Below, in pieces: positions 1,493 through 43,665 of a stretch of DNA of 64,000 nucleotides. The notes under the pieces were generated by a model, which had not been told where the DNA came from, ran no database searches, and saw nothing but the letters and a program-made list of their open reading frames with translations. The translations under genes and the position numbers were made by a program. Source of the DNA: Cucumis sativus (taxonomy: Eukaryota > Streptophyta > Magnoliopsida > Cucurbitales > Cucurbitaceae); NCBI RefSeq assembly GCF_000004075.3, contig NC_026658.2:930001-994000 (forward strand), written 5' to 3'. Positions within the stretch are counted from its first letter, which is position 1. Every line of letters starts with the position of its first letter.

Positions 1493-4400
1493 ATGGAGGG
1501 ATCAAAACTAGAACAAAAGGATATGGCGGTGAAGCCTCTAAGGTCATTTAGGAAGAAAAAATGGGCTAAGATTAATAGAAGTGTTGCTGGTTCTCTCCTC
1601 TTTGTGCATCTACTTTGTATTTTTGCACCATTTCATTTTAATTGGAGTGCATTTTGGGTTGCATTTGTATTATACGTTATCACAGGTCTATTTGGTATTA
1701 GTGTTTCTTATCATAGAAATCTAGCACATCGAAGTTTTAATCTTCCAAAATGGCTTGAATACTTATTTGCTTATTGTGGAGTTCATGCGCTTCAGGTTTG
1801 CTCTTTAACCATTTCTTGTTTTAGTCTTTTTTCTCTTTTTGAAATATATGTTTTTTCTCCTAATTCTAAATTTCATACTATAATTCTTTCACATATTCCA
1901 AAAAATACTTTGTCTTTACTCGAATGCTTTTGACTTCAAATTCTACCAACAAAAGTAAGTTTTTCAAAAACTATATATATATATTTTTACTTTTCAAATT
2001 TCAACTTATTTTTTAAAACAAGGAAGTGGACAACAAAACAAATAAACTTATTGATAAAATAGTTTATATAAAAAAAAAATTATTTCTCAAAAGAAAAAGA
2101 AAAAAACAAATGTCACCAAACTAGCTTAAATTACTTTAAAGTGTTTTAGCATATCTATTTATTAGAAAATTAAATTTCTCTTTATTTTTAAATTTTGCAG
2201 GGCGATCCAATTGGTTGGGTGAAGATACATAGATGTCATCATCGATTTGTTGATACAGAAAAAGACCCTCACAGCCCTATTCAAGGATTTTTGTTTAGTC
2301 ACGTTACTTGGCTTTTAGATTCTTATGTTTTAACTGAAAAAGTTGGACCTAAATATTTTGATGATTATGAAAAGATAGAAAGGAACGTGGTTATGGTGAA
2401 CATGAAGCAAGGGAGACCAGAAAATAACGTTGGGGACTTGGAGAAGCAAGCATTCTATAGGTTTCTTCGGAAAACATATTTTCTTCATCTGCTTCTTCTT
2501 GCAGTTCTACTATATGCAATGGGAGGAGTTCCTTTCCTGATATGGGGAATGGTAAAATAAAAGCTTTCTCAATCCTTTGAACTCTTAGTTGATGGTAAAT
2601 AACATTATATCGGTTGGATTCGTGTTGAGGAAAACAAGCATTTATCATAATGAGGTTTGACCTCTAATATTTATCTTCCGGTTAGCCAAGAATTGAATAA
2701 GGAATAATGCTTTCAACCATTGATCCAACCACATAAATAATGTCAGATCTCAATGTTATGAAAACCCAATACATCAGTAATATAACAGAAATAGGTATAG
2801 GATAAAAGAAAATTTATTTATAAAACTTCTAACAATACCTACCAACGTAATCAAATATCATAATCTATCTATAATAGATTATGATAGATCGATCATGATA
2901 AATAAAGATCATAGACTATTATATACGTCTATCATGATACAAATAGACACAATATAATAGTTTTTATTTGGTTTACCTTTTGAGTAATTTTTTTTTGTGA
3001 GATTTTATGTTTTAATCTAAAATTTTGGTTATTGAAAAAATTGGTTTAAACTAAGAATTGAAAAGTTATGAGAAATATTAGAGTCTTTATATAAAAACAA
3101 ATGAGAAAAAATCTATATAATTTATTTTAAAATTGGTTATTTTCGAGAGAAAAATTCAAAGAAATTGATTGCGAGGAATTATGAATTTGCATTCAAATAC
3201 TCAAGGTGAAGGTATTTTTGAACTTTTATTAAGGGTATTTTTTAAACTTTTGAAATTTAAAGGTACTCGTCAACGACTTATATCCAAAATTAATGTTTCG
3301 AAAATGTTCTTACTACTATTTGTTAATTATAATTAATTTGATATAATTTGAACTTATATAACATATTTACTTTTATGGATTTAATTTTTTTAAAATTAGT
3401 ACAATTTATATTATTTTTACCTGTTATTTTTTTCAATAATATATCATAATTTAAGATTTTTTTTTATAAAATAAGTATTAATTTAAATTTAAAATAAAAA
3501 TGAAACAAAAAGGACAATAACATAAAATTGGGATGTGGGAAATTTTTATTTTTGTTTTTTGAAATTGATACCAACGTGGGTCAATAGATACATCCAAAAA
3601 ATCTACTAAAATATTAAAAATTTAGAAATCCACGTTTTATAAGAATGTCCTAAACTTAGATATTAGAGTATCTTAAAATACTACCAAATAAATACGTACA
3701 AACGTGTCCATTCCATAAAATAATAAACTATCCAAATATTGGTGAAGGCATTGAAATGAGGAGACAAAATGATGTTTTTACTGCGTGGGGCCTCTATTTA
3801 ATGTATGAGAAAGTAGATTTTAGCAAAGAGGTTGGTTTCATGTAAAAAAGAAAATTAGGTTAAGAAATAGAAAATTTCCAAACTTTCCATGACTTTTCCA
3901 AACACGTATAATATCATAATTTATTGCTATACTTAAAAGTTGCAGAGTTGAGACATTTCTTAACGTACATATTAAAAGCTTATTTAATGCTAATTTTGTT
4001 AATGCACATTTCAACAGTCATGTTTAGATTATTTGCAGGATAGAAAAATAAGAGAAATTATGTATCAAATTATTTATTTGTGGTGTAGGGTGTAAGAATC
4101 GTTGTGGTTTTACACATAACATTTATGGTGAATTCAGTATGTCATATATGGGGAAAACAACTTTGGAAGACAAATGATTTGTCAACAAACAACTGGTAAT
4201 TTTCTTTTTCTCTCTCCCTCGCTCACCCTTTATTAAGTTAGAAATGACCTATAATCTCGTTAGTTACATCATTTAACACTATTCTTACTTATGAATTTGA
4301 TTAATATATGTATATAAGAACCAACCGATCATGAAAATTAACGTTAATTGGAAGAAAATAACATTATTACAATAGTTTGAATACAAGATCCAAGCTTTTG

Positions 4401-4708
4401 AGTCAATTCTATACATGTTGATTTGATATGGCTTAAGTATCTAGATTTTTTCTTAGTCATATAGTTTTGTATATAACCTCTTGTGTGTTGTGTTTAGGTT
4501 GGTGGGTTTACTTGGATTTGGGGAAGGTTGGCACAATAATCACCATGCATTTGAATATTCAGCTAGACATGGACTTGAATGGTGGGAAATTGACTTTGGT
4601 TGGTATGTTATTATGTTTCTTCAAGCCATTGGAGTGGCCACTCATGTTAAAGTACCCTTACAACACCACAAGAAGAAGTTGGCAATGGATGAGACAAAAT
4701 TTATATGA
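1493..4708 (+). CDS. ADS: ADS-type acyl desaturase 1 (four exons)
   Basis: Exons 1493-1795, 2201-2551, 4089-4195 and 4498-4708 join into a 323-residue protein; all introns are GT-AG. The family (plant ADS, related to animal SCD and yeast OLE1) comprises ER or plastid di-iron enzymes that put a double bond into acyl-CoA or lipid-bound acyl chains. Visible ligands are box 1 H74/H79 (HRNLAH), box 2 H111/H114/H115 (HRCHH), the N233...H237 pair in exon 3 that matches the extra Asn and His ligands of SCD1, and box 3 H266/H269/H270 (HNNHH). Hydrophobic pairs at about 32-70 and 195-237 fit four membrane segments. There is no obvious plastid transit peptide, so ER location is inferred. Oddities: GDPIGWVKIH replaces the GDPIDWVSTH shared by most paralogs, and exon 3 opens with Gly where the other + copies have Cys. 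Intron 2 is long (1537 bases). Substrate and regiospecificity cannot be read from sequence. Confidence 0.9.
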
Positions 4709-6963
4709 AAGCCTTCCGAAGACTAAAGTCATCATTTACATAAAAATATATGTTAAACTCATGAATATCTTCTAACGAAGACACAAAATCATGCAATAAT
4801 TCTAAAAGCGAATAAATGTTATTAATTTTGAGTTATACTTTATGTTATAATTTGTATAAGAAAAAGTAAGTGTTATATAGAACCTATGCATATGTTAATG
4901 TTGGTCGTTGGATAGATTTCATACCTAAATTTGAAAACTAAATGACTATATCGAATCTACCACATAAGGACTAGTCTTAATACCAAAAATCAGTTCCAAT
5001 ACAAATATTCTTAAAATCATAAAACAATATGATTGATAGACAAAATCTATTGATTATAGATCAAATATGTTGTATTTGTAAATTTTTAAAAATATTATTA
5101 TAAAAAGTGTTTATTATAGGATAAAGTATGATTAAAAAATTATAAGAGAAAGATTGGGAGGGTAGTTATATATATAGATGATGTATCAAAGTATTTTTGA
5201 AAGCAAATAATTTAGTGAAAAGAAATAGATTGATATGATAAGACTTTGGACATTTCTTGGTGCAGTGTGTGAGAGGATCACGATGTTCACACTCACACAT
5301 GTAATGTTTATTTGTTAAGTCAATAGGCCAATTCGATTTATCTACAAATAATTGGTAACCATACGTGTTGTATCCTTTTCATTATTTTACACTATGAAAG
5401 AAAACGGGATGTGAGGAATGATTTTAAAATTGTTAAAATTATTATTTCGTATAGCAAAGAATAGTCAAATCTCAAGATCATGTACCAAATATATTACACA
5501 TGCGAGTGGTCAATTAATTGTGTGTTAACTGAGACATTTTTAGTATTTTTTATATGGATTTGTGAGGTTTTTCCATTTTCAAAATTGTTCTATATAATGT
5601 AAATATTTTGTCGACTTGTTGTTTTTTTTCTAGAAAATTCATTTTATTGTATCAATTTTTTTAAAATAAGTTATATGTTAAAAGCAGACAATAAAACTTA
5701 TGATTTCAAAATATAATTGTTCATAGATATGTTTTTTCTTTTGCATACAATCTCGAGGATTGATGCATGTCAATTACTCTTATATATATGCATGAATGTA
5801 TGTATATATAGAGTTGTTTATAGAAAAGTTATTTTATATAATTTTTAAAATATATATATACAGATATAACAAAATATTACAATACGTTCATGATAGACCA
5901 TAACAATTAAAATAAAGATCAATATTTGTGTCTATCATGATAAAAATAAATACAAATAGTTTTTTAAAAAATAATATCTGAAATATAAGTAGTAGTTTAT
6001 CTATGATCAACTGTGATATTTTTCTATATCTTCCAAATATTATGGTTTATTTGAGAAATGTATTTAATACTTTTTAAAAAATAATACTTTTATTGATTCG
6101 GGGATAAACAAATTTATTTTACTATTAATTCGTAGGGCGTTAGATAGTTTATTTATACCAATAATCCTATACTCTAGAATTAATTTCATAATGATTGTAG
6201 TATTCAACAAATTGATAAATGGAATCCAATTATTATTATATTAAATGTGCATTTATAGACTAACTCTTGTTTAGACATTACCATTGATATTTAATATTAT
6301 TCAAATAAAAAAAGAAAAGAAAAAATCCAAAAACCAAAAACCAAAAAACCTCTTGGTATACATGTATCTCTGTTATGTTGATGTTCGAGTTTCGCTTTTA
6401 CAACCTTTAATCCAGTAATGAAAATATACGATATTGTCAAATTGAGTATAACTCCTTACACATACGAACATTTTAATAACTAAGAGTTTTGTAATTTAAA
6501 TATTTCTTAAATTTTATTGTACTAAAAAGATTCAAAATATAAGATATTATAAATTTACATTGGTTCATTCCTCACAAATTTAGTGAAGGACTAAGAAGAA
6601 GTACCCCATACTATAACACAATATATAACAACTGTATATTTCAAATAACTTTTAAAACATTGATTACTGATATGCTAGCTATATATTTTTATGAATAAAA
6701 TTTGATTCTCTATCAATTATAATAAATTATAATAATCAATTCAAATTAAATACAAGTAGGTGCCTTAATTAATTAGTTGTTACTTATTTTCTACACAATA
6801 AATTATCCAATAATCACAAATGGGCATCCTTAATGGCTTTGTTAAATATTTGAGAGAATAGTCAAACTTTAAACCAGCTAGCCACTAAAATAGTCAGGAT
6901 CATTAATGACTAATAATATATGGTTTAATACTATATTATTATAGTGAGACATAACATGCACTA
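4709..6963. other. Intergenic between desaturases 1 and 2
   Basis: No intact gene. It holds a decayed desaturase exon 3 (listed separately) and AT-rich, partly palindromic sequence around 5845-6060 with short 'catgataga' motifs similar to the dispersed repeats noted elsewhere. The last few hundred bases lead into the promoter of the next copy. Confidence 0.5.
5266..5354 (+). pseudogene. Relic of desaturase exon 3
   Basis: The segment follows a perfect acceptor-like 'tgcag' and starts with the TGTGTGAG that opens exon 3 in the + strand genes. It runs through a recognisable 'catgtaatgtttat' stretch and ends with 'gatttatctacaaataattg' followed by gt, as in the intact copies (compare 8357-8463). 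It is 89 bases instead of 107: the middle that encodes the His ligand and the WG motif is mostly deleted, and small indels break the frame. I see no exons 1, 2 or 4 around it. It is best read as the last trace of a further array member, or as a partial duplication of gene 1 or 2. Confidence 0.75.
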
Positions 6964-6971
6964 TATATAAA
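6964..6971 (+). promoter_or_regulatory. TATA box of desaturase gene 2
   Basis: TATATAAA lies about 60 bases before the ATG at 7033, in the same relative place as in the paralogs. Confidence 0.5.
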
Positions 6972-7032
6972 ATACATGTTGGAGAGAAAATGGTGAAATA
7001 ATCTAAATTAGAGAGAAGAAAACACTTTGGAA

Positions 7033-9014
7033 ATGGATATGTCAAAACAAGAACTAAATGAAAGGGTGAAGCCTATAATGTCACCAACGAAGAGAGAATG
7101 GACCAACATTGACAAAACCATTGCATGTCTTCTTTTCTTTCTTCATGCCCTCTGTATTTTCGCCCCATTTAACTTTACTTGGAATGCGTTTTGGGTTGCC
7201 CTTATCTTGTATAGTATTACAGGTCTTTTCGGCATCACTATTTCGTATCATAGAAATCTTTCACATAAGAGTTTCCAGCTTCCTAAATGGCTTGAGTATT
7301 TATTTGCTTACTGTGGAGCTCATGCACTTCAGGTTTTATATTATTCGATAATCTTATATTGTAATTATTTTAATAGGATATGATAATCTTGTACTTCATT
7401 TCTTATATATATATATATATATTATCATATTAAATTATATCAAAGTATATTTGAGAATGACTTAAAACCTAACTTTTGATTGTATTGATGTAATTTAGGG
7501 TTTCCATATAATCAACTCACATATTTCTCTCTAAAATAAAATTATCTTTTGATTTTTCTTCATTGTTTACGTTACTTTTGTTGATTTTATAGTCATATAT
7601 CTTTTTTTATTTTCAAATTTTGAATTTGTGTATTTTAGGGTGATCCGATGGATTGGGTAAGTACACATAGATGTCATCACCAATTTGTTGACACAGACAA
7701 AGATCCTCATGATCGTAATCAAGGATTTTGGTTTAGTCATATCAATTGGGCTTTCGATTCCTACCATTTGACTAAAAAGGTTTGTGGTAAGTACTTCAAT
7801 GATTCCAAAGAAACAAAAAGAAACTTGTTCACATTAGTAATGAAGCATGAGAGACCAGATAATGTCAAGGACTTGGAGAAACAAATATTCTATACGTTTA
7901 TTCATAAAACGTATATTCTTCATCCAATTGCTTTGGCAATCTTTCTCTATATGGTTGGAGGACTTCCTTTTGTTTTATGGGGAATGGTAAAATAACATCT
8001 CACTACTATCAATAAATCTTATTATTTATTTTTATTATCTTCATCAACATGGTAATTTAATTTTATATAGTAAAAGGGAAAATGGAACAAATAGTAAGAA
8101 ATAAATCATTGATTAATTCCTAATTCAGGAACGTGTTTTGCTAGTCAGAATTTCAAATGTACTTTTTTTCTTGACTTATATAGTTGTTGGCTTCAAAAGT
8201 GACTTTGTAATAAGAGAGAAACTAAAAAATAATTTAATGTCAAATACATAGATTATATAATTGAAATTATAGCCCTAGTTTATGGTAAATCTCGTGTATT
8301 TTAGGAAATATATATTTGTATTGACGTACCTAACCTTACTGTACCTTTTGATGCAGTGTGTGAGGATAGTAATGTTATATCATGTAATATTTATGGTGAA
8401 TTCAGTATGCCATAAATGGGGAAAGAAACAATGGAGTACAACTGATTTATCTAGAAATAATTGGTAAATTCTTTGTGCCTTCTTTTCAACTTTGGAAGAT
8501 GATTAAATGAAGCGCCCTTTTGGCTCATGAGCATGATGATGGAGCTTAAGGGTATCAACTTAGTTGAGAGATGCATGGGTTTTCTTACGGATTCATTTTC
8601 CTTGAGTATCGTGTTAAAAAATAAAAAGTATCATTGCTTGATATAAAAACCTTTAAAAGATTATCAAACAAGGTTTCAACCTAATTAAGATGTCTTAATA
8701 CATTTACTTATCTATTCTTTTAGTATCTTATTAAACGGGAGAGTATATATGCTCAATTTTTTTCACCTCCAAGTTAAGGATTGAATGTTTATTATATATA
8801 TTGATTATTGGTTAATTTTAGGTGGGTGAGTCTTCTTTCTTTTGGAGAAGGTTGGCATAACAATCACCATGCATTCGAGTATTCAGCTAAGTATGGACTT
8901 GAATGGTGGCAACTTGACTTTGGTTGGTATGTTATTATGTTCCTTAAAGCAATTGGAGTGGCCACAGATGTCAAATTACCCACTCAATGCCACAAGCAAA
9001 GGATGAAACTGTGA
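7033..9014 (+). CDS. ADS: ADS-type acyl desaturase 2 (four exons)
   Basis: Exons 7033-7332, 7639-7986, 8357-8463 and 8822-9014 give 315 residues. The ATG at 7033 is the first in frame downstream of the TATA box; a second ATG two codons later is also possible. Ligands are complete: HRNLSH near residue 73, THRCHHQF near 110, NSVCH in exon 3 and GEGWHNNHH in exon 4. The loop after box 2 reads VCGKYFNDSKETKRNLF, the short + strand version. Exon 2 contains GDPMDWVSTH with Met for the usual Ile. Introns are short (306, 370 and 358 bases). The product is an integral membrane desaturase, probably ER-located since no transit peptide is evident; its substrate is unknown. Confidence 0.9.
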
Positions 9015-12150: not shown

Positions 12151-12208
12151 AAGAGGTTAGATCTAAGAGATGAGTAATTGGGTTGAGCTAGATCAAGGTT
12201 CTCTTCTT

Positions 12209-14741
12209 ATGGATACATTAAAAGAAGAATCAAAGAAAATGGGGAAGGTTCATCAAATGACATTTGGGAGGAGAAAATGGACCAATGGAGACAAATTAAA
12301 AGCATCTCTCATTTTATCTTTTCACGTTCTATGTATTTTTGCACCTTTTCATTTTAATTGGAGTGCATTTTGGGTTGCGTTTGTATTATATATTCTCACA
12401 GGTCTCTTTGGAATAAGTATTTCTTATCATAGAAATCTTTCCCATAAAAGTTTCAAACTTCCAAAATGGCTTGAATATGTATTTGCATATTGTGGAGTTC
12501 ATGCAATTCAGGTTTGACCTTTTTGAACCATCCTTTGTCTTGCTATTTTGTTTGAATCTATTTTTATTTTGAATTAAACATTAGAACTTTCTATATTATT
12601 TTATAACGTTGAGATTAGAAGTATGTTTATTTACCTCAAACAGACCCATCTTAAAAGAGAAGATGAGAAAGATGGGTGGGGATCTATCGGTTTAAATACT
12701 ATTTTTGTCACCATAATTCTAGTTTTGGTTCTTTTCCGCTCTTGTACTTTAATAAATTTCATTGTCGCAACTATATATAATCTTTTAGCCTAATTCGTTC
12801 AATTTTGTTTATTTTATTCTTTGATGTATTTTTGAAAAATGAACCTCCAAAGGTAGAATATGATGACTTTTTTAAAGTATAAAATTCAACCCATTAACAT
12901 TTTCAAAATAAATTAAAACTAAAAATACACAAAAAGACTAAAGTAGTATATTTTTTTTCAACTTGAATATATCTTAATGTTATTTTTTCAAATCTTTTAT
13001 TCCATAACTGCCATCTATAATCTAAAATATTGAAATAAGTTTCATATCTTGTTGTTTGGTTCATTTTAAATATTTATTTTTCTTTCTAATTGTAGGGTGA
13101 TCCAATCGACTGGGTGAGCACACATAGATATCATCATCAACATACAGATACCGAAAGAGATCCACATAGTCCTGTACAAGGATTTTGGTTTAGTTACGTC
13201 ATTTGGATCTTTGATACCATTACTTTAACCAAAAAAGTCTGTCCAGAGTATTTTATTGATTATAAAGATAAAAAAAGAGGTGCCTTTTCCTTGGTTACTA
13301 AATATGGAAGTCCAAATAATGTTGCTGATATGGAGGATGATCCATTTTATAGATTTATTCATGATACATACTTACTTCATCCAATTGCTCTTGGAGTCCT
13401 TCTCTACATTGTTGGAGGAACACCTTTTTTTATATGGGGAATGGTAAATAAATCTCTCTCCAAAACATGCATAAATTTATTTTTTAAAAAAAGGGTTTCT
13501 TTTACTATCAATTTTAATATATATATCTACATATATAAAGGTTTATGACAATTAGGGATATATTGATATGATCTCTATTGATTCTGCAGTGTGTGAGGGC
13601 AACAGTGTACATGAATGTAGTGTTTATGATTAATTCAATTTGTCATTTATGGGGAAAGAAACAATGGAACACTAAAGATTCCACTAGAAATAATTGGTAA
13701 GTGCTTTATCGTGAATTCTTGTCATTTATTTTTCTTGTCATTTATTTACCTCACCAAATACAATCAAAATAGTTTCGAATTACGATTTGTAACGATTGAG
13801 TCTTTTTATATCGTAAAAAATATCATTATAGTTTAAGAAAATTGCTTACACATGTGTTGAGTTGATAAATTGATTAGAACATGTCTTGAGTTAATAAATT
13901 GATTAGAGATAATTTTTTTATTATTAATAATAAACTATAAAAATAGTGATAGAAATGACTGTCAGATTATAAATTTAATTATGTAATTCTATTATGGACT
14001 TTAATGAGTAGAAAACTTTTGATTTAAGAGTATAATGAAGGTGTTAATAAGAATGTCAACCTAGTAATTGAAATGTCTAAGTATGTTTAAAAACTCTCTT
14101 CCTCTATTATTTTATTCGAAAAAAGGAAAAATAACTTTTAAATATTTATTATAAATAGAAGTCAATATCATTATCAAACCAGAGACCTAAATTAATAATT
14201 AAAATAGATAATCTATTTTTTTAAAAAAATAATCTATTTTTTTAAAAAAATAGATAATTACTTACTATTTGAACTGATACATACCTTTCACAACTCATGT
14301 AACATTAGAAGAAAAAGACACTATACACCATCGATTATTGTACCATTATCATTTAAGAACTAGGTAAACTGATAGAGGTGTGGGTGGTTATTGATGAATA
14401 CCACAGTTGTTTAGCAATATACAATGAAGCCAGTACTATATCTTGTATGTTAAAAAGTTGTATATATATTATATTTAATGAAATCTATCATGATTGTTTG
14501 ATTTTTGTTGCATTTGCTCAGGTGGATTAGTTTGCCTTCATTTGGAGAAAGTTGGCACAATAATCATCATGCGTTTGAATATTCAGCAAGAGCGGGGATT
14601 GAATGGTGGGAAGTTGACATTGGTTGGTATGTTATATTGTTTCTTCAAGCCATTGGGTTGGCCACTGATGTCAAACAACCCTCTCAAGCTCACATGCAAA
14701 GGCTATCTATGGACAAACCAAATGAAGACTGTCAAGAATGA
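12209..14741 (+). CDS. ADS: ADS-type acyl desaturase 3 (four exons)
   Basis: Exons 12209-12511, 13096-13443, 13590-13696 and 14522-14741 give 325 residues. An upstream in-frame ATG at 12170 would add 13 residues, but it lies too close to the TATA box, and the paralogs align from MDTLKEESKKMGK. Ligands are HRNLSH, THRYHHQH (with the rest of the box TDTERDPHS), NSICH and HNNHH. Box 3 is preceded by FGESW rather than FGEGW; as I recall, Arabidopsis ADS1 also has GESW, so this is an allowed variant and not damage. The post-box-2 loop is KVCPEYFIDYKDKKRGAF. Intron 2 is short (146 bases), intron 3 long (825 bases). It is the last copy before a gap of about 7 kb. Confidence 0.9.
14210..14251. repeat. 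21-base tandem duplication in intron 3 of desaturase 3
   Basis: Two exact copies of a 21-base unit starting aatctattttttt (14210-14230 and 14231-14251). The unit is itself close to palindromic (T7-A7 centre), so the stretch could form a hairpin. Confidence 0.85.
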
Positions 14742-21891: not shown

Positions 21892-22926
21892 ATGCAAACA
21901 GTACAGAAACCAAAGGCAATGGGGAAATCCCCAAGGTCATTCAAGAGGAGAAAATATACCAAGTTGGACAAAATCATTTTCTTTTCCCTATTCATCGTCC
22001 ATATTGCCTGTATTTTTGCACCATTTCATTTTACTTGGCCTGCATTTTGTGTCGCGTTTGCATTGTACTTTATTACTGGCTTATGTATTAGCGTTTCGTA
22101 CCATAGAAATCTTGCACATAAGAGTTTCAAACTACCAAAATCAATGGAATACTTTCTCGCTTATTGTGCGGCACATGCTCTTCAGGTTTATTAACACGTG
22201 ATCAACTTCTACTTCTTTTTTGTTTATGAAATGTTATATATCTATTTTTTAAAATTATTTGTTATTTATTTATTTATTTAGGGTGATCCAATCGATTGGG
22301 TGAGTACACATAGATGTCATCATCAATTTGTTGATACAGAAAAAGATCCACATAGCCCTATCGAAGGATTTTGGTTTAGCCATATCACTTGGCTTTTTGA
22401 TTCTTATAATTTGACCAAAAAAGTTTGTCCAAATTATTTTACCGATTTTCAAAAAGTTGATAGAAGCATATTCATATGGTTCTCCAAGCATGGGAGACCC
22501 GATAACGTTCGTGATTTGGAGAAGCAAACCTTCTATAGGTTTATTCATAAAACATATTTTCTTCATCACATTCTTCTTGCGATCCTACTCTATCAAGTTG
22601 GAGGACTTCCATTTCTTATATGGGGCACGGTAAAGGTTTCATTTATAAACTAACTTTATATAAACTTTCATGTATTCCTCTTGATAATTAACATATCTAA
22701 TATGTAACATTATTTTTTTATTATATGGAAAGTTGTGTTTAAAATACCAAAATTTAAGATATAATCATGTAATGTCTCACGTCCAAGATTTGGAGTCGAT
22801 CAGATTCGGTATCTAAGGACTTTAACATTCTCTTATATTTCTAGTAGATGTGGCTTAGTGACAAACCAAGATAAAGAAAACGTTGGTGGACAATGTGACC
22901 ATGGTAGAATAGGTTATTATCTATAC

Positions 22927-22994
<68 letters not shown>

Positions 22995-24416
22995 ACTTTT
23001 ATATTTAGTAGCTCAATTGAAGAAATCTTATATTGGATGACTTTCTATAGATTTTTTAAGAAACGTGGGAGTGAGGACACTAAAATAACTCAACATTAGC
23101 TTTTGTAGAGATAGGACACAACACTATCAATAAGTTCAAAAAAAGTATATCTGATGATCTAACTAGAGGATTTGGAAAGGATACGTGAGAGAATGTCAAA
23201 GAATCATCATAGTTTTAAATCCAACGTTTAGAATAATCCAAGTCATAATCGTTGGACTTGAGACGTTATAATGATAGTCATAATTCTTTCTCTTCCATTT
23301 AATCAAGCATTTCGATTAGATAATAGATATGCAAATTTTCATTTTGGGCTAACGAAAATAATTTCTTAACTTTAAATTATGTAGTGTGTAAGGATCGTAG
23401 TGCTCATGCACGTAACATTTATGGTGAACTCGGTATGTCATATATGGGGAAAACGTCGATGGAATACTAAAGATTTGTCAAGAAACAATTGGTAAGTGCT
23501 TCTATATCATTCTTTATTTTCATTAATCAAATGTGAGATATTATTTAAATAGTTGATTTTATCCTTAATCTCCATTTCAATATACTAAATTGGATTAGGT
23601 TTGAAAGGACTATTTAAGTATTAATGAGAAACTTTCTTTGACACTTTAAGCTCTTAAAAAATTATTTTAAATACGTTCTAAGTTTGAACAATCATGAAAT
23701 AGAAATTCTACACTTTGCTTTTAAATGTACTATTGTTTTATATACACTCTAAGATTGAAAAAAAAAAGATCAAATGTGGTCCTCGAAGCACATCCAATAA
23801 AATTGGAATGATACATAAATATTACCATGGCTTCATACGATGGGAAAATGGTACAAATTGTTTAAATAGATCGAAAAAACAACGTGTGGATGAGAAAAAA
23901 TAAAAATAATTTTCTTTAAAAAAAATAAAAAAGTAAAAATAAAAGTTTTGTTTATCTACACTAACACTTCTCAAATAGAGATACTCTTCCTATCAATTAT
24001 ATTTTTTTATTATTGACTTAGTGAATTGTGATTGTAAGACTTTTTTATGGCATTATTTCCAACCGTTACCATTCAAAACTTGTTGAAAGAATTCCCCAAC
24101 CATATTATATAGTAATTGCCAATTAATATGTATGTCTCCTTTTTAGCTAGCCTAGGCATATACTATATAATTATGATTTACTATTTATTTGTTAGTTTTC
24201 CTTTTATTCTTTTAAAGGTTGGTAGGTTTGCTTGCATTCGGTGAAGGTTGGCACAACAACCATCATGCTTTTGAATATTCAGCAAGGTTTGGACTTCAAT
24301 GGTGGCAAATTGATTTTGGTTGGTATACAATTAGGGTTCTTCAAGCCATTGGAGTTGCCAAAAATGTTAAACTACCTTCTACAATTCACAAACAAAGGCT
24401 TTTTATAGACTATTGA
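21892..24416 (+). CDS. ADS: ADS-type acyl desaturase 4 (four exons)
   Basis: Exons 21892-22185, 22282-22629, 23385-23491 and 24218-24416 give 315 residues. Ligands are complete: HRNLAH, THRCHHQF, NSVCH and HNNHH. It is the most divergent + strand copy in exon 1. GLFGISVSYH is shortened to GLCISVSYH by a three-base deletion, FWVAF is FCVAF, and the otherwise constant KWLEY is KSMEY. Exon 2 ends ACG where all paralogs have ATG, giving Thr at the exon 2/3 junction. Since all ligands and splice sites are intact, it is probably still an enzyme, but constraint may be relaxed or specificity changed in the first membrane hairpin, which lines the acyl tunnel in SCD structures. Intron 2 carries a long AT microsatellite. 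Confidence 0.85.
22933..22986. repeat. AT dinucleotide microsatellite
   Basis: An uninterrupted run of about 27 AT repeats in intron 2 of desaturase 4. Likely hypervariable in length. Confidence 0.95.
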
Positions 24417-25074: not shown

Positions 25075-27795
25075 TTAAGAGGAATCACATGGTGAAGTGA
25101 TTTTATATTGGATGGCCAACTTTTGCTTATGAAGTTGAGTGGGCAATTTGACATCAGTTGCCAATCCAAGAGCTTGAAGTAATAAGATAACCCACCACGT
25201 GAAGTCAAATTCCCACCATTGAAGACCATGTCTAGCTGAGTATTCAAAAGCATGGTGGTTGTTGTGCCAACCTTCCCCAAAAGAAATCAATCCTATTATC
25301 CTGTCTCTCAAACACATACACAAAAACATTAATTAATTTACAAAACCATCCTAAAATATTAGAAGAGAGAATGAAACTTTTACATGTATATTTGTGTACC
25401 ACACACTTTAAACAAAAAGAATTAATAGCTCCTTGACCTTTGTCAAACAGGTATCTTTTAAACTTGTAAAATCTCAAATAAATCAAACTTACGTTAGAGA
25501 TCTTAAACAAGCCATGGATCTCCCCTTAGCTTAGAAATATAAATCTATCTTTTGTTTTTTATTTTAAAAAATTAAGTCTATAAAATCTACTTCTACCCCT
25601 AACATTCTATATCTATATTGTTACTTGTTATTGATTTTCTTTTAACGTTTCAAATTCTTTTTTAAAAACTATATATTTTAATATTTTTGTTTTTATAATT
25701 CAGTTAGCAATTTTTAAATACTTATTATTATTATTAAGAAATGTGAAAACCATAATTAAAAATTTGAAATGAATATAGATATTACTTTTGAAAAGGAGTA
25801 TAAACAAAATAAGATCAGAATTGTTAAAAACCTAAAACTTTAGGAAATTTAACAAAAACAACTATGGATGGATGATAAGAAAAAGGAGGAGAGAAGAGAC
25901 CAATTGTTCTTTGATAAGTCATTGGTGTTCCACTTTCTGTAGCCCCAAATGTGGCATGCTGAATTCACGAAGAGTGCAGCATGTAAAACACAAATCAGCC
26001 TCACTCCCTGCCCATCACAATTCACAATCAATCTCTTATTATTTTTATTATTTTACCATCTCCTTCTGAATGTCAAATTGTCAAAGCCAACAATTGAATG
26101 CAATACCTTAGTAACAAAAAAAAAAAAAAGTAATAAATAAAAAGAATAAATTGTTTCAATTTGAAAAAACCCTTTAAAATATAACAAAATTTCATAGAAT
26201 TTTTTATATATTTTAGAATTATTTTGATTCATTTTGTTATACTTAAAAATAACCTTATGATAGATTAAATATAATTAAAGTCATAAAATTCAAATTTCCA
26301 CTTAATGTTTGTGAAATTTGAGTAGGTTTGATTTTGTTTTGTTTTAAAAAAAGTACTAAATTATATATGTTTGTATTAAAAGAAAAACTATAAAAATTCT
26401 AGTTCAAACCAATAAATGAACAAAATTTAAATATATATGTGATAGACCGTGATAGACTTAAATGGATATCTATCGCTTTAGATCAAACATAAACGAATGT
26501 TTATTTGTATCTATTGCATTTATAATTAATTGTGAAGGTAAAGTTTTATTATATTTATAGATATTTTTAACTGCTTTATCATTTAAAATTATTTTATTTT
26601 ATTTTATTTACTTGGAGATAACTTTTCAAACTTTTCAATCCCACAATAAACAGGGAGATGGAGAAGCTAACATGTTAAGAATAATGAAGGCAAACAAAAG
26701 AATTGCATTTTTCTATCTTTTTCCCTTGTGTTAATACTTACCATTCCCCAAACAACAAAGGGAAGTCCTCCAAATTTATAGAGAACAATTGCAAGAGCTA
26801 TGGGATGAAGAAGGTATGTTTTACGAAGGAACCTGTAGAAACCTTGTTTCTGCAAATCCTCAACATTCTTTGGCCTTCCATACTTTAGAAAACCCACAAA
26901 CCAATTGCGAGAAAGTGTTCGTTTTGCTTCTCTTTCCTTGAAATCTTCGAGATTTTTCGGATAAATCTTTTCAGTCAAACCATATGAGTCAAACATCCAT
27001 GTCATGTGGCTAAACCAAAATCCTTGCATGGGACTGTGTGGATCTCTATCGGTATCAACAAACTGATGATGATATCTATGCGTACTAACCCAATCAATTG
27101 GATCACCCTATAGCAAAATTAAACGAAGAGATAAAATGTTACAAATAACTTTTTATTTTTTAAAGAAGAGAATAAAGTATTGAAGGATTAGTAGGCTTGT
27201 ACGTACAACCAAATATGTTAACTATGTTGGACACATTTCTTACAAACCCTACCTTATATTTATATCACAAAAGGCGAGTACACAAAAGAAGAGCCGGAGA
27301 GGAGCTTAAGAGATCATACAAAGAACAAGACTACAGAGAACGAAGCTCAAGACATCATACAACGAACAAGGTTAATTAATTACCAAATCTTAATCAATAC
27401 CACCCTTGTCAGTAATGACTTTAATTATAAAACAAACAACACAGTAATACCATAATAATACAGCAAACCTGAAAGCCTTGCACTCCAAGATATGCAAAAA
27501 AGTACTCAAGCCATTTAGGAAGTTTAAAACTTCTATGTGCAAGATTCCTGTGATACGAGAGCGTAATCCCTAAGGCACCTGTAATCAAATATAGTGCAAA
27601 AGCAACCCAAAATGCAGCCCAATTGAAGTGAAATGGGGCCAAGAGAGAAAGCAAATGCAAGAACAAAATTCCAGCAGCAGTACGTCGGTCTAAAGTTGTC
27701 CATTTTCTGTTGAAAAATGCACGTTTAGGATTCACCATTGAAAATTGCTTCTTCTTATCATGTTTATCTTCAACCTCTTTTCTTGCTGCCTCCAT
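25075..27795 (-). CDS. ADS: ADS-type acyl desaturase 5 (four exons, - strand)
   Basis: Exons in transcript order are 27795-27469, 27107-26742, 26007-25901 and 25300-25075, giving 341 residues. The start is the first ATG, giving MEAARKEVEDK, which matches the MEATRKELEDK start of the other two - strand copies. Ligands are HRNLAH, STHRYHHQF, NSACH and HNNHH. Exon 2 has 122 codons against 116-117 on the + strand, because the loop after box 2 is longer (KERE-AKRTLSRNWFVGF). Box 1 is preceded by GALGITLSYH where most paralogs have GLFG. The C-terminus is longer than in the sister copies, ending KITSPCDSS. Its exon 3/4 sequence is intermediate between the + copies and the two distal - copies, which suggests it is the older member of the - class. 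Confidence 0.9.
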
Positions 27796-27890: not shown

Positions 27891-30800
27891 GTCAAACACT
27901 TTGCTTGAAGAATACTAGTTAGGTGGGTTTGGTTCTTTGAAATTAATAGTAGATAGAGCAAATTAATGTTTTTACCCTAAATTTTTTATTGCGAACGATT
28001 ATTGTTGTAAATAGTAATTGTAAAAAAAAAAAAAAAACTTTTATACGAAAAATGTGTTTGCATACATGACACTAGTGTCAAAATTTCAAATCTTAAATTA
28101 AAAATTACCTTTTATTTTATTTTTTTGTAAAAACACCATATTTCTTATTTCACCTTCCATCACACTTCACAACAATCTCAATAAAATAAGTAAAATCCAT
28201 TCAATTAAACTATATTATAATTAAGGAAAAATTATTTCTTTATCTCAAAAAAAAATGAGAAATTAGTATAATTTATGAATGTCGCAAAAATAGCTTTCTA
28301 ATGAATAGATTTTAATGTTAATTAAAATTTTTGTTTTTTTCTTGAGTATCTTTTATTCTCGTAGATGTGATCCATCATATATGAAAATCGAATTCAAAAT
28401 TGCATATTACAAGATTTATTTAAGAATATGGTATAAGTTATTAAAAAACCTTAATAGAAAACCTTTTGAAATAATATATTAATTTTTTAATGTTTGAAAA
28501 TGCAAAATTTTAATTGGTTTAGAAAAAGTTTTACGAAAGACGTTAAAGCCGAAAGAAAGTTGAATTTTTTAAAAAATCAAACCTTTGAGAAATTTTTAAT
28601 TAAATCAAATAGAGAAGTTATTTAAGATGAATAATATATACAGAAAGAACAATCAACCAACATGCAAAATAATAAGTTAAGCAAATCTAGAAAAACAAAA
28701 CTAAGATTTCTTGAAAGAATCGATTCTCTCCTGGTAAATAGATTATTTGAAAGTGCATAATCTAGAAAAACGACGGTTAGATGTATTTCTAAATTTTGTT
28801 TTTAGATATTTTTACCAAAAAAAGCCAACAAAGATAAATAAATTTATAACATAATATCGATATATTAAAGTTTTAACTCAACCGTAATTAACACAATCTT
28901 TCTTAAACAAAGTAGAATTTCGGATCTCGCACTCAAGAAAATATATAGACACTACTAATAAGACTTTTTTTTTTTCCTTTTAGCAGGTTTAATAGCTGAC
29001 AAGAGAGATGTGGATGAGAAGTCTATTATATATATATGTGTGTGTTTAAAGAATCATCGAAATCACAACAAGGCCTATGCAATAGTTAACCCTATAACAA
29101 AATGTTTTTGTTTATCACATCACCACAATTAAAATAACCACTCTTTAATAGATCACTAGGAATTTTAAAAGATGATTTAAGAAATTAACCATACTGCTTA
29201 ATTCGTAACAGTAAGAAAACTGAGGAGAAGAATTATTTTTAATGTCTCTATGCAACAGTTTTTTTCATCCATCCGAACACTTATGATCTCCTTTAATTAA
29301 TAATTATGTTTGTTGCAGCTCCTTTTGTAATCCATTTTTTCACAGTTCATTTCTAAATTTATTAACACTTTCGTTCACTCTCAATACTAAAAAGTTGAAA
29401 AATTAAAATATTAATGTCGATAAAAATATCAAAACCACAAACTAATGAAAATATTGACATTAAAAGAAATTCATTTGTAGATGTTTTGTTTTTATTTAAA
29501 AATAATAATCGTGAGAATGGAGAAAATCTGATTTGGACGAAAATTTTCGATCATGTATATATAGAACAAAATAGTTGAATAATTGAAGAAGGGATATTTA
29601 TGTTTTATGACATTGTCGAACAACATAATATTGAATGCCAACCTGTACTGTCATTACTACTCTACCTATTCACCTGGAAAAATATTACAATAATGCATTC
29701 AAATGTTATAAATGAATGTTCATCTAAAGAGTGATTAGGTTATTCAAATTTGATGATGTTTATTTGGTTCTTGAGATTTTAGGGTGAACACTTCAATTGA
29801 CCAACGATAAAATGACATGATTATTAAATAAAAGACGATCTAGCTAGCTTATTTGGAAAAAGAACAATTAATTTAAATTTGTTGGGTTGATGTGGGTTCT
29901 CCTTCTTCTTTACCTCCTCCATAAGCTTCTTTAACTTTCTCGGTCGACCTTCCTTTGGTTATAAACCTCTAAAATAGAGAGTATGAAAAAGGTGTAGATA
30001 TGAACTTGAGAAAGAAGATGGAGTTTAGAGCTAAGGAGGATGGAGTTCACCTCGATCAACAAAAAAAAAAAAAAAAGTGGGACTAAAGTATTTCTGAAAG
30101 TATTCATTTCAAAACCTCGTCAATGATCAAATTGATATCAGCTTTTACTCAAACATTGGGACTAAAAGTGCATTTTATCTAAAAGAAATTTAAAAATTGA
30201 TTCTCGATTTTTTAATGATAAGATTTTAACCTTTCATTGTTGAAAAAATCTTACATAAAAAATTCTCACAAAAATTTCAAAGAAACCCTATGATGTAAAA
30301 ATTTATTACAATGAAACAGAATAACTTTCTCTCTTAACATCAATTAAAGTAGTAGTTTCTTAAAACTTTTGGCCAGTTATACATTTTTTTCACTCTCAAA
30401 CTAGAAAATACAAAAATGAATTTAATTAGAGTTAACATAATAAGCTTCAAAGTGTTTCTAACTAGTCGTGGAAGACCCTGGCATAAATCATATCTATATA
30501 AATATATATATCATATGGTTGGTGCTAACAGTGAACTTGATCTTAAATATTTTTTATATGAGGAAAATGCACCTACTATTTTGTAAGAAAAAATCACAAC
30601 AAAATTCACCTTAATAAGATATTTGAAAAATAATTCACAACTTCTGCAACATTCATGTATTCACCGACCATCATAACTCTTAACCCTCATAGAATTATAA
30701 CTTACGCTACCAAAGAAACATAGATCATCACTTAAAGATTTTCCTTTTGATATTTATGACAACTTTCATGACTCATTTTAAAGTCCATCCTCAAATGGCA

Positions 30801-32740: not shown

Positions 32741-35103
32741 TTAATCGCTTTTGGGTTGGATGGCCAACTTGTGCATGTGATGTTGAGAGGGTAACTTCAA
32801 ATCAGTGGCTAACCCTATGGCTTGAAGAAACAAAATAACCCACCAAGTTACATCCAACTGCCACCATTCTAGGCCATGTCGAGCTGAATACTCAAATGCA
32901 TGGTGGTTGTTGTGCCATCCTTCTCCAAAGATGAGTAATGCCAACACCCTAAAATCCAAACAAATTCTATATCAGTCCAACTGGTGGCAAAGTCTTAAAA
33001 ATTAAAGATGGTCAAAAGTCATCCTAGTTTAGCCAAAGCATAGTTGGAAATATAAAAATCAATTATATACTTTTTTTTCTTGTTTTCTTTCAAATCAAAT
33101 ACACTCGTTATAGATTTTTAGATTATAATATACTATAATATCCATTTCATCGTGTGTGATCTAGGTTCATTTATATACGTCTCTAGAACCGAAACGTTAC
33201 AAGAACAAATCCAATATCCGAGAAAAATGACTAGACAAAATCTTAAAAGAACTGTAATGTAAAAATGAAAGGAACGTGTGAACGTCACCAATTATTTCTA
33301 GATTGATCTCCAGTGTTCCATGGTTGGTTTCCCCACATGTGGCCTAAAGAGTTCACAGCGAAAGTGACATGTTGAAAGCATACAGTTCTTACACCCTGCA
33401 TTTTCAATGCATTTATTCAACAATTCAACCCTTCCATTCAAACATTCTTTGTAATGTTAACATCAACATATATGATGTTTATGTACTGAAAATTACAAAT
33501 AAATAATGTTTTTCAACCTCACTTCCAAAGCTTGCATAAAAGATATATATATGTATATTTAATTACGTACCTGACGTATATTTTATATGTCAGTTGACAG
33601 TGATTAGTTTTAGGAAATATAGGTTAAAAAACTTGGATTTATTGCAAAATAATCGGTGTATATTAGGTTTTTTATTTCTAAAAACATTTGGATGTATGTG
33701 CAATTAGTCGACACACTAGCATATGTCAAATAAGTTAGACACATATAGAACACACGTTAACTAGGTTGACACATATATTTCAACTTGTGTACGTTAGATT
33801 TTAAGCTAACATGTAGTAGTAGTAATAATAACATTAAATAATATTGTAAATGATAAAACTATTAGAAAACATTTCTAAAATATACTAAATCTTCATATTC
33901 TATCGATGATGAGAGATACAAATATATGACTGTCTATCAATAATAGAGTTAAAATTTTATTATATTTTGTAAATATTTTAGTTCATTTCACTATATTTAA
34001 AATTACTTCTAATGATCATGATAATAGTAATAGGATTTTAAATTGTAACCGGGACAAACCCAAGTATAAAATTTTTAGATCTAATTAAGAGTGTTTGATT
34101 TGACTTTTGTTTTTCTAAAACAAAATATGACAAGTAAATTATTTTAGGAGATTGATTTATATAATTAAGTTGACACATTTGTAATTCTTACGTGATCTTC
34201 TGACCTAGAAGTATATATTAAAAATTAACATTTGAAAATGATGTTTTTTTGGATCAACTCGACTTAAAATAAAAAATAACAAAATTAGTGCTAGAATAAC
34301 TGGGTTTACCATTCCCCAAGTGAGAAAAGGAAGCCCTCCAAGAGCATAGAGGATTATTGCAAGACCAAAATGATGAAGAATGTATGTTCTTCGAAGAAAC
34401 CTGTAAAAGCCTTGATTTTGTAAATCCTCAGCATTGTTAGGTCTTCCATACTTCAAATATCCCACAAACATATTTCTACTAATCTTTCTTTTCTCATCTT
34501 TTGCTTCGAAATCTTCAACATGTTTAGGGCTAACTTTTTTAGTCAAACCATATGAATCAAATATCCAAGCAATATGTCCAAATAAAAACCCTTGTGTCGG
34601 AGTGTGTGGATCTCTTTTTGTATCCACAAACTGATGGTGATATCTATGCGTACTCACCCAATCAATCGGATCGCCCTATAAACACACCGAAAAATAGATT
34701 ATAATTTAAACATTGTCAAGAAAACAATTAAAAAAGAAAAAAAAAAGTGAAGGTGTACTTGAAGTGTATGGACTCCAATGTAAGCAAACGTGTACTCAAG
34801 CCATTTGGGAAGTTTGAAACTCTTGTGTGTAAGATGCCGGTGGTACGAGAGTGTCAAACCGAACAAGCCCGTGATAACGTAGAGTACAAAGGCAAGCCAG
34901 AAGGCTGGCCATGTGAAATAAAATGGTGCGAAAACACAGAGAAAATGCATAACAAGAAAAGCACCAGCAGAACGTTTGTCTAAAGTTGTCCATTTTCTTC
35001 GGAAAAATGGTCTTCGCCGGGACCTAACCCGAGGTTTGTCTTCAACCGCCATAGCCTTCTGATCGCTATTTTTATCTTCCAGCTCTTTCCTTGTGGCCTC
35101 CAT
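32741..35103 (-). CDS. ADS: ADS-type acyl desaturase 6 (four exons, - strand)
   Basis: Exons in transcript order are 35103-34759, 34675-34310, 33395-33289 and 32948-32741, giving 341 residues. The codons upstream of the ATG are open but contain no in-frame ATG. Ligands are HRHLTH (His for the usual Asn after HR), STHRYHHQF, NSLGH and HNNHH. In exon 3 the residue before the ligand His is Gly instead of Cys, shared with desaturase 7. Exon 1 ends CAA|gt, unlike the CAG|gt of copies 1-5, also shared with copy 7. The N-terminal region is rich in Lys/Arg (RVRSRRRPFFRRKW), a cytosolic anchor of the kind seen before the first membrane hairpin of ER proteins. The exon 2 loop is SPKHVEDFEAKDEKRKISR. 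Confidence 0.9.
33865..33990. repeat. MITE-like palindromic repeat in intron 2 of desaturase 6
   Basis: Left aaaacatttctaaaatatac and right ttatattttgtaaatatttt are imperfect reverse complements flanking a centre with 'ctatcgatgatgagaga' and 'gtctatcaataataga'. Same general build as 11414-11566. Confidence 0.4.
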
Positions 35104-35228: not shown

Positions 35229-35236
35229 TATTTATA
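35229..35236 (-). promoter_or_regulatory. TATA box and conserved core promoter of desaturase 6
   Basis: TATAAATA on the - strand is followed downstream by aaggcataac, then a 'gcatgaaa' and 'cctagcatctgagttgag' string. Nearly the same string follows the TATA box of desaturase 7 (43776-43783), with one small indel. Confidence 0.65.
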
Positions 35237-40331: not shown

Positions 40332-43300
40332 TTACTCGATCTTAGGTTGAATGGCCAACTTTTGCATGTGATTTCGAGAGGGCAACTTCACATCAGTGGC
40401 TAACCCTATTGCTTCAAGAAACAAAATGATCCACCAAGTTACGTCGAACTGCCACCATTCTAGGCCATGTCGAGCTGAATACTCAAATGCATGATGGTTA
40501 TTGTGCCATCCTTCTCCAAACATAAACAATGCCACCATCCTAAAAAGTGAAACTACTAGTTCAATAAAAATATATCAATTGAATATTCATTTAGATTATT
40601 ATAGACTATCAACCTTTATTCAAAATTGTTACATGTCTTAGCCACACCAACTATGACTTTGATATCAATTGATGGAAATAGGTAAAACCTATATGATAGG
40701 ATGAGATTCCATCTCAAGTCCAATTTGAAAGAAAATAGAGTTATTAGTGTATATGGATAATGGCTAGTCATTCATTATTTTAAGCATTCCTCCTGGTCAT
40801 ACTTTGATACAATCGGGGTATGTGATCTAACATCATGAATATTATATTTATGCATGTAATCCTCCTAAAAGTTTCTTTAAAGAGAAAATATGAAAAAGAA
40901 AGATAAACATTAAACATCACCAATTATTTCTGGACTGATCCCCAGTGTTCCACTGTTGGCTTCCCCACAAGTGGCCTGCAGAGTTTAGGAAGAAAGTGAC
41001 ATGTTGAAAGCATACAATTCTTACACCCTGCACACAACAAATAATCAAAATCAATGCCATTATTTATTCAATATAATTAATTCATGAAACCCTTTTCTCA
41101 CCACCCCCTCTCCTTTCAATTTTCAAATATTCTTTCTGATGTAATTAACATATGAATGAACAAATAATTAATGTTATTTATCCCCACTTCAAATATTGTA
41201 CAAAAAGAGAATATAGATTATTGTGTATCTAACTAATGATTTTGCAGCAAATTAAGTATTCATATCTAATTAACCCTGTGACTCAAAACACTCCATCTTC
41301 CCCTATATATTTTGTTAACAACAAAAGAAAATAGTAATAAATAAAATGGACCCAATAATTAAAACCAATTATATATTGTGTTACTAATTACAGCTGTCAT
41401 CCACTTATAAAAATTAGTTGCTAATTAATGTGTCTTAAACTCTTTGTTATTTTTAATTACCATTTTTATACCCACTCCCACTTCTTACCAAAAAAAAAAT
41501 ATATATATAGTATTTAGATTTAAAATAATTAAATATACAACGATATTTTAAAAAAAGTCTAAAGATGATACATAATTATTTGTTGAGAATAAATTTTGTT
41601 ATATTTGCTATTTGAAAAAATAAGTTGTACGTAATTATTATTCTCAAAACTACTACCAATTATAATTATTTCATGTTGACGAGATTTTTTTTCGAATATG
41701 ATAAAATAATATAAAATATTTACAAAATATAGTAAAATCTAAAATTTTATACGAGAAATTAATAAACTTCTATCAATGTCACTAATAACATGTCTATAAC
41801 ACTTTATAAATAGAATATAAAATCTTGTAATATTTTGTAAATATTTTCAACAATTTTATTATGAGAATTGTATTAGATGACAAAAAAGTTTAGAAAAAAA
41901 CAGTTCGTAACACTTTTTTTTTTATATTGTAAATTTGACAAATCAGACGATAATATACTTTTAAATTTATTATTTTTACAAATTTGAAAAAGTAAGTGAT
42001 ATACACTGTAATATTATATTATCGTTTTTTTTTTCTTTTGCTATTTTTACAACCTCTCATTTTACCCTTCATTTATAATAATTACCTTTTAACCCGCTTT
42101 CATTTTAGAAAATTAAACATGTACATTATGTGGCTTATACATATTAAATTCCATAATAATGTGGCTTCAAGATTCAAATCCTTTACATGTTAGTTGATTA
42201 TATATACACACACATAAATCAATTGTGCTATCGTCCTTATTTGGCAAAACAAAAATTAGAAAACTTTGGTTTTTTTTTTTTTTTGCAAACTTGTATAGGG
42301 TGAAATGAATAAGCTAACATGCTGTGTAAAATTAATTATAACAATTATTATTCTAAACTATTTTACATTTAAAATAATAACAAGCTAACATGTAGTGTAA
42401 ACTTATTATTATGATTATTAACTATTTTAAATAACAAAGTTTAGAAACTATTATCACATTTATATCAAAACGACTAAATGTTGCTCTATACGAAAATATC
42501 TCTATTACCATTAGAAAAGTTATTTTAAATGATAAAACAGTTGAAAATATTTATAAATATAACAAAATATATACTATTATATGTGACTATCTATTATTTG
42601 TGTCGTTATATAAACGCAGATAATAGTCTATTACAGTTTAATCATCATAGATACGTTATGATATATATATTTTTTTGTATTTATAAATATTTTAGTTTGT
42701 TTTACTATAGATTAACTATAATTATATATTTTTGTTACTACTAAACTAAAATAAAATTTCTCTAGCTAAAACCTAATTAAATTAAATCGACCTAATAAAA
42801 AGTAAAGTAAAATATTAGTGTGGTAGAAGAACAGATATCTTACCATTCCCCAAACGAGAAAGGGAAGGCCTCCAACAACATAGAGAATAATTGCAAGGCC
42901 AAAATGATGAAGAATGTATGTGCTTCGAATAAACCTATAAAAGGCTTGCTTTTGTAAATCCTCAACATTTTTAGGTCTTCCATACTTCAAATATCCCACA
43001 AAAATATTGCTAAATGTCTTTCTTTTTTCATCTCTTTCCTTAAAACTTTCAACATATTTTGGATTAACTTTTTCTGTCAAACCATATGAATCAAATATCC
43101 AAGCAATATGTCCAAAGAAAAACCCTTCTACTGATGGGCTATGTGGATCTCTTTCCGTATCAACAAACTGATGATGAATTCTATGTGTGCTCGCCCAATC
43201 GATTGGATCGCCCTATAAAACACACAAATATAAAATCACAAAAGAATGGAAAAAGAAAAGAAAATGGCAAGAACATTGACTAGTAAAATATTTACTAACT

Positions 43301-43665
43301 TGAAGAGCATGAACTCCCATATATGCAAATGTGTATTCGAGCCATTTGGGAAGTTTGAAACTTTTGTGCGAGAGTTGTCTGTGGTATGAGAGCGTCACGC
43401 CGAACAAGCCTGTGAGAATGTAGAGTACAACAGCAAGCCAGAAGGCTGGCCATGTGAAATAAAATGGTGCCAAGAGACTAAGCAAATGCATAGCCATAAC
43501 ACCACCAAAAGAGCGTCTGTCTAAAAGTGTCCATTTTCTTCGAAAAAGCGGCCTTCTTCTTCGAGGCCTAACTCGAGCTTTGCCTTCTACCGTCATAGCC
43601 TTGTGATCATTATTTTTATCTTCCAGCTCTTTTCTTGTGGCCTCCATTTGAGGACTAAGGGACAT
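40332..43665 (-). CDS. ADS: ADS-type acyl desaturase 7 (four exons, - strand)
   Basis: Exons in transcript order are 43665-43300, 43212-42844, 41027-40921 and 40539-40332, giving 349 residues. A start at 43647 (MEATRKELEDK) would match the sister copies and give 343; the ATG at 43665 adds MSLSPQ and is simply the first available. Ligands are HRQLSH, STHRIHHQF, NSAGH and HNNHH. Exon 2 has 123 codons, one more than copies 5 and 6, from PSVEGF in place of PTQGF. GDPIDWAST replaces GDPIDWVST. It is the closest relative of desaturase 6, consistent with the block duplication. Intron 2 is the longest of the array (1816 bases) and contains two MITE-like repeats. Confidence 0.9.
41713..41857. mobile_element. 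MITE-like palindromic element 1 in intron 2 of desaturase 7
   Basis: Left end aaaatatttacaaaatatag (from 41713) is the near-reverse complement of the right end gtaatattttgtaaatattt (to 41857). The centre has 'aacttctatcaatgtcac'. About 145 bases, non-coding. Confidence 0.5.
42543..42694. mobile_element. MITE-like palindromic element 2 in intron 2 of desaturase 7
   Basis: Left gaaaatatttataaatataa and right gtatttataaatattttagt are imperfect inverted repeats around a centre with 'ctatctattatttgtg'. About 150 bases. It adds to the length difference between the introns of copies 6 and 7. Confidence 0.5.

Follow-up and report, generated by a model that had tools for sequence, protein, structure and literature searches.

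How did a run of desaturase genes arise on chromosome 4 of cucumber (Cucumis sativus), and do its members still encode enzymes? The seven genes in question, all of the FAD5/ADS type, four on the plus and three on the minus strand, occupy positions 1493-43665 of the window, a stretch of 64,000 nucleotides (nt) at C4:930001-994000; these endpoints mark where the coding sequences of the outermost window genes, first and last, start. In searches of the 226.6-Mb genome (88 contigs), the array extends over nine genes at C4:922416-973665 (one minus, five plus, three minus). Two of them lie left of the window, so the window edge cuts the array, and the seven-gene array of the first-pass annotation is correct for the window and two genes short for the locus.

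The reading that we favor, at a probability of about 0.72, is that the array grew from a plastid FAD5 gene, that the copied lineage became non-plastid and now carries intron 2 as coding sequence, and that the copies are working desaturases. Neither the array nor its size and tandem origin is new: PMC4777478 (2016) lists 14 CsFAD5 genes in cucumber, with CsFAD5.4-5.12 as a tandem cluster on chromosome 4 and pairs on chromosomes 1 and 7. The order, strands, spacing and histidine-box sequences of the nine genes agree with CsFAD5.4-5.12. The part without a prior report that we could find is the apparently exonized intron 2 common to the expansion; searches of the open PubMed Central literature yielded no account of exonization in the FAD5/ADS family.

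The intron 2 site in plastid FAD5 and its copies

The outermost left gene of the array, plastid FAD5 (C4:924339-922416, minus strand), has five exons and encodes 380 amino acids (aa). Its long, Ser/Pro-rich N-terminus is transit-like by composition and may be a plastid transit peptide. Histidine boxes stand at residues 156, 193 and 325, leaving 127 residues between the second and the third. Intron 2 of this gene is 84 nt long (C4:923533-923450), is bounded by GT..AG, contains three in-frame stops and sits between the residues ER and CGEPNNVGDL. At the same site, all 13 other full copies in the genome (eight on C4, three on C1, two on C7) carry a stop-free, in-frame stretch, 66 nt long in ten copies and 84 nt in the three minus-strand C4 copies, which adds 22-28 residues after histidine box 2. 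Read unspliced, the 13 copies have four exons and 149-156 residues between boxes 2 and 3. GT..AG is retained exactly at the ancestral borders in nine of them, which points to an intron origin; one end is lost in the other four. Exonized introns and exitrons of plants are in-frame, stop-free stretches with intron-like ends inside a coding exon. In all 13 copies the stretch has the sequence properties of an exitron, being in-frame, inside a coding exon, stop-free and of a length divisible by three. The exon 2 alignment of these copies has two invariant residues here, the Lys that ends the stretch and a Pro four positions after it; the Val that opens the stretch and a Pro two positions after that are each conserved in at least 90%. 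Intron 2 appears to have been exonized in the expanded copies, adding those 22-28 residues to the protein.

The genes and stretches within the window, named by order against Table 1 of PMC4777478, are as follows:

1493..4708, plus strand: gene 1 (CsFAD5.6), exons 1493-1795, 2201-2551, 4089-4195, 4498-4708; 323 aa
2342..2407, plus strand: gene 1, 66-nt stop-free stretch at the ancestral intron 2 site, GT..AG ends kept
7033..9014, plus strand: gene 2 (CsFAD5.7), exons 7033-7332, 7639-7986, 8357-8463, 8822-9014; 315 aa
7780..7845, plus strand: gene 2, 66-nt stretch at the intron 2 site, GT..AG ends kept
12170..14741, plus strand: gene 3 (CsFAD5.8), exons 12170-12511, 13096-13443, 13590-13696, 14522-14741; 338 aa from the first ATG
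13237..13302, plus strand: gene 3, 66-nt stretch at the intron 2 site, acceptor AG lost
21892..24416, plus strand: gene 4 (CsFAD5.9), exons 21892-22185, 22282-22629, 23385-23491, 24218-24416; 315 aa
22423..22488, plus strand: gene 4, 66-nt stretch at the intron 2 site, GT..AG ends kept
25075..27795, minus strand: gene 5 (CsFAD5.10), exons 27795-27469, 27107-26742, 26007-25901, 25300-25075; 341 aa
26883..26966, minus strand: gene 5, 84-nt stretch at the intron 2 site, donor GT lost
32741..35103, minus strand: gene 6 (CsFAD5.11), exons 35103-34759, 34675-34310, 33395-33289, 32948-32741; 341 aa
34451..34534, minus strand: gene 6, 84-nt stretch at the intron 2 site, GT..AG ends kept
40332..43665, minus strand: gene 7 (CsFAD5.12), exons 43665-43300, 43212-42844, 41027-40921, 40539-40332; 349 aa from the first ATG
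42985..43068, minus strand: gene 7, 84-nt stretch at the intron 2 site, GT..AG ends kept

Each of the seven fits a four-exon model with phases 0,0,2, has GT/AG at all three introns, reads as a single open frame from ATG to stop, and keeps nine histidines and an exon 3 asparagine (10 of 10 ligand columns), which correspond to the metal ligands of SCD1 structures. The first-pass annotation, which had described seven intact genes on two strands with a common layout and all histidine ligands plus the exon 3 Asn/His pair, is borne out on these points. Open frames and complete ligand columns are present in all nine array genes. Homology to membrane desaturases is evident from a sequence match to SCD1 at E 3.6e-32 and from cyanobacterial homologues that are 50% identical to plastid FAD5. 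The general Pfam desaturase model, PF00487, hits only two exons taken singly, at E-values of 3e-5 and 0.002 that fall short of its curated cut-off, and its whole-genome search returned seven places, none of them in the array. Exon searches found no further match between C4:910001 and the first array gene, nor between the last array gene and the end of the window.

Descent of the copies

In a tree computed with the insert excluded and rooted on two Prochlorococcus homologues, plastid FAD5 branches first. The minus-strand trio of the window forms a clade (support 98/95), and the second class (97/95) unites the plus-strand copies with three from C1 and two from C7. A clade of the five plus-strand C4 copies alone is neither supported nor rejected (approximately unbiased test, p-AU 0.489), and the tree does not fix the inner order of this class. 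The two classes described earlier are therefore present, the plus class being wider than the window suggests, and strand and class coincide within the window; outside it, plastid FAD5 lies on the minus strand apart from both classes, and the plus class reaches other chromosomes. An early inverted duplication producing two arms, each of which then expanded, had been suggested from the window and is compatible with any of the readings of the insert considered here. The two well-supported clades are what it would leave behind, but a minus-strand plastid FAD5 outside both classes and the C1 and C7 members of the plus class fit it poorly, and a simple inversion would give the same picture. We regard this history as possible, at somewhat below even odds.

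The tree alone cannot polarize the change between plastid FAD5 and the other copies, and the insert might conversely be ancestral protein that plastid FAD5 turned into an intron. Against this, the two cyanobacterial homologues lack the insert, and five exons are reported for Arabidopsis and poplar genes of the FAD5 clade (PMC9570219). Because of these two observations the insert is probably derived, and intronization is the least credible of the readings that we weighed. Since plastid FAD5 itself shares the five-exon structure, the four-exon layout of the seven window genes is probably derived as well.

Plastid FAD5 was published as CsFAD5.4 with 287 aa, and the open frame extends 93 codons further here. 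CsFAD5.1, placed on unplaced scaffolds in PMC4777478, has a published length and box positions of exactly 380 aa and 156/193/325. Because the full plastid FAD5 product equals CsFAD5.1 in both respects, CsFAD5.1 and CsFAD5.4 appear to be one gene that was counted twice. Published localization predictions assign CsFAD5.1 to the chloroplast and CsFAD5.5 to the mitochondrion and give no signal for the other twelve, the short form of CsFAD5.4 included (PMC4777478).

Selection, splicing and the published gene models

Codon models fitted to the 13 copies give an omega of 0.32 in the 22 shared codons of the stretch and 0.20 in the 277 other codons. Omega=1 is rejected for the stretch under three frequency models (2dlnL 17.6-22.0), and likewise for subsets of eight and of six copies in which GT..AG is intact (2dlnL 7.1-11.7). 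Parsimony changes in the stretch number 47, 35 and 64 at codon positions 1, 2 and 3 (hand-computed chi-square against equality 8.7, 2 degrees of freedom). When neutral evolution was simulated on the third-position tree at the third-position rate, not one of 20000 runs ended with all 13 tips free of stops; the share was 0.17% at half that rate and 2.5% at a quarter. Judged by these codon-level tests, the stretch evolves as protein. The stretch might nevertheless be an ordinary intron in every copy, as published, with stops absent by chance, and the published models and the accompanying complementary DNA (cDNA) statement in PMC4777478 support that view. It is difficult to reconcile with an omega below 1 inside the stretch, GT..AG-keeping copies included, with a length divisible by three and freedom from stops in 13 of 13 copies, with simulations that rarely or never reproduce this, and with the missing splice end in four copies. 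We consider it highly improbable.

The genes as a whole also appear constrained. Ten gene pairs compared by the NG86 method have dN/dS of 0.14-0.36. Taken with the omega of 0.20 outside the stretch, this indicates purifying selection, on average, across the copies. For CsFAD5.10/5.12 we obtain 0.14 (dN 0.198, dS 1.39), against a published Ka/Ks of 1.09 (Ka 0.305, Ks 0.332); six tandem pairs were given values of 0.80-1.28 (PMC4777478). The published near-neutral Ka/Ks conclusion is not reproduced here.

In PMC4777478, all CsFAD5 genes are given five exons and 127-128 residues between histidine boxes 2 and 3. Plastid FAD5 has both features (127 residues) and the 13 unspliced copies have neither; family membership of the latter still rests on homology and ligands. 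To judge from their histidine-box positions, the eight published models CsFAD5.5-5.12, which describe the same locus as the array genes other than plastid FAD5, drop 21, 22 or 28 residues of exon 2. In five of the eight (5.5, 5.6, 5.9, 5.11 and 5.12), the part removed is exactly as long as the ancestral GT..AG stretch, and the models of 5.7 and 5.8 are consistent with a GT-AG pair that spans 63 nt and is displaced by 11 nt. Within 30 nt, CsFAD5.10 lacks any GT-AG pair of the published length, and both C7 copies lack pairs of 63 or 66 nt. This mixed pattern of removed lengths and missing pairs suggests that the models were fitted by homology.

The same pattern bears on whether the GT..AG copies act as exitrons, still splicing the stretch from part of their transcripts and each making a long and a short desaturase. 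GT..AG survives at the exact borders in nine of the 13 copies, and excision leaves the reading frame intact; five of eight published models take out just this length and two more fit the shifted pair; and PMC4777478 reports five exons and cDNA checks. However, a 66-nt intron would be shorter than any other intron in the 14 models (shortest 73 nt), an objection that does not touch the 84-nt stretches. The ancestral pair is unusable in four of the 13 copies, and CsFAD5.10 and both C7 copies offer no pair of the tested length within reach. We hold partial splicing to be unlikely, though far from negligible. Compared with plant exitrons and exonized introns, the cucumber state differs in being, on the evidence of tree and codon tests, common to a whole duplicated clade and under purifying selection.

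Several observations weigh against the favored reading. The strongest, with respect to constitutive exonization, is the statement in the Methods of PMC4777478 that introns were confirmed by full-length cDNA amplification; if this check covered the genes of the expansion, at least part of their transcripts have the stretch spliced out. CsFAD5.8, which has lost the ancestral AG, possesses the alternative in-frame GT-AG pair 63 nt apart. Constraint is weaker on the insert, where uncorrected pN/pS is 0.53 as opposed to 0.34 elsewhere. The branch that sets the 13 insert-bearing copies to one side has support of 93/79, which is not strong. Comparison of the plastid intron with the 13 inserts at the DNA level gave a best rank of 7 among 500 shuffles (CsFAD5.12), with the others between 23 and 411, which we do not take as demonstrating homology. 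Because DNA similarity is not beyond doubt, it is position, frame and ends that speak for the proposed origin of the insert from an intron. Finally, exon 2 folded alone gave a poor model (predicted local distance difference test, pLDDT, 57.7), which was not used.

Weighing these points, we propose that the nine-gene array most likely grew from the plastid FAD5 gene that is still present at the left, immediately beyond the window edge. Ahead of the class split, the copied lineage would have lost its transit peptide, leaving products that most likely reside at the endoplasmic reticulum. It would also have ceased to splice intron 2, so that the former intron is translated as an insert between histidine boxes 2 and 3, probably on the cytosolic side near the acyl-carrier site, as the SCD1 alignment and structure would suggest. 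The copies would be di-iron desaturases, most likely working and maintained by purifying selection, and would probably differ in chain length or carrier. It is also conceivable, though we think it unlikely, that exonization was the founding step: a desaturase freed from the plastid would have gained a cytosolic loop of 22-28 residues next to the acyl-carrier pocket, after which the 13 copies would have diversified in both chain length and carrier, some of them still switching between long and short forms by splicing.

If the proposed exonization is correct, the published cucumber models miss a conserved piece of protein, as would expression constructs designed from them. A single intron-to-coding change, seemingly common to 13 copies and with the unchanged parent in the same array, would allow the states before and after to be compared within one genome. 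The results also bear on two published claims of PMC4777478, the plastid FAD5 gene count and near-neutral evolution. Among the CsFAD5 copies, that paper gives expression for CsFAD5.1 only. Six gene numbers of the chromosome 4 cluster, other than those of CsFAD5.6, 5.7 and 5.10, led to PMC4777478 and to two further papers. In Table 1 of a drought and grafting study (PMC8854630), Csa4G006100, which is part of CsFAD5.7, and Csa4G006160, which is CsFAD5.12, appear as FAD5/ADS genes with changed expression. The latter number is used inconsistently, being assigned to an RBOH gene in PMC9250653.

Known desaturases, other copies and neighboring genes

The histidine boxes align with those of mouse and human SCD1 (4ymk, 4zyo), and the insert falls in an unmatched part that follows histidine box 2 and ends where the alignment resumes; between matched segments, the unaligned stretch of gene 5 is 19 residues longer than that of 4ymk. 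In SCD1 structures this region is the cytosolic cap close to the acyl-CoA head group. Along the array, the column of SCD1 Tyr104, a residue at the tunnel end, holds I, V, V, S, I, F, L, V and I; the remaining copies have V, F, I, Y and N. This variation suggests that the copies may differ in chain length. Arabidopsis FAD5/ADS3 and ADS1/ADS2, members of one family in the plastid and at the endoplasmic reticulum, resemble the cucumber genes in their histidine boxes and in comprising plastid and non-plastid members, and the Arabidopsis family is given nine members (PMC4777478). The cucumber expansion appears to differ from its Arabidopsis counterpart in its four exons and its insert of 22-28 residues.

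Exon 2 of gene 5, used as a query, has matches at 16 genomic sites, of which C4 holds nine, C1 four, C7 two and C3 one. Fourteen could be reconstructed as complete genes whose introns all have GT/AG, and the nine histidines and the asparagine are complete in 13 of these. The other, at C1:14597621-14599773, has Ala for the exon 3 Asn ligand (VASIGH) and may be inactive or altered. An orphan exon 2 at C1:14596831-14597178 is 98.9% identical to exon 2 of a C1 gene about 2 kb away in opposite orientation, and is either a recent partial inverted duplication or an assembly artifact. The C3 copy (C3:33605994-33606875) is dead, with stops in exons 1, 2 and 4, exon 4 within 20 bases after exon 2, and exon 3 not found. 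Single FAD5-like exon fragments also occur at C3:2658937, C2:4072602, C4:18195688 and C6:17337089. A separate CsFAD5.1 locus was rejected as a candidate: of the five places where a whole-genome search with plastid FAD5 hit the query's own C4 gene, three were at 98-100% and two at 78% and 90%, and all other places were at or below 80% among the matches listed.

The single relic that the first-pass annotation placed within the array could not be confirmed. No C4 match lay outside the gene models in tblastn (E 0.01) or blastn (E 0.001) searches. Permissive alignments, covering 4901-6900 with the exons of three genes and the window up to 46000 with those of six, yielded an exon 3-like trace at about 5268-5364 (plus strand) that did not exceed shuffles, and another at 28335-28396 (minus strand) at most barely above them (score 20, the best of 12 shuffles reaching 16).

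To the right of the array, at 47443-50452 on the minus strand, lies a PDCT/ROD1-type gene (PF24788, E 2.4e-45 for one of its exons). ROD1 and FAD5 are close together in Arabidopsis as well, although a literature search for the two locus numbers yielded no paper, and the adjacency may represent an old microsynteny of two lipid genes. Further on, a CBS-domain gene (53106-55476, minus strand) is followed in the opposite orientation by a long single-frame leucine-rich repeat protein (55953-57401, plus strand), which we take to resemble TOO MANY MOUTHS.

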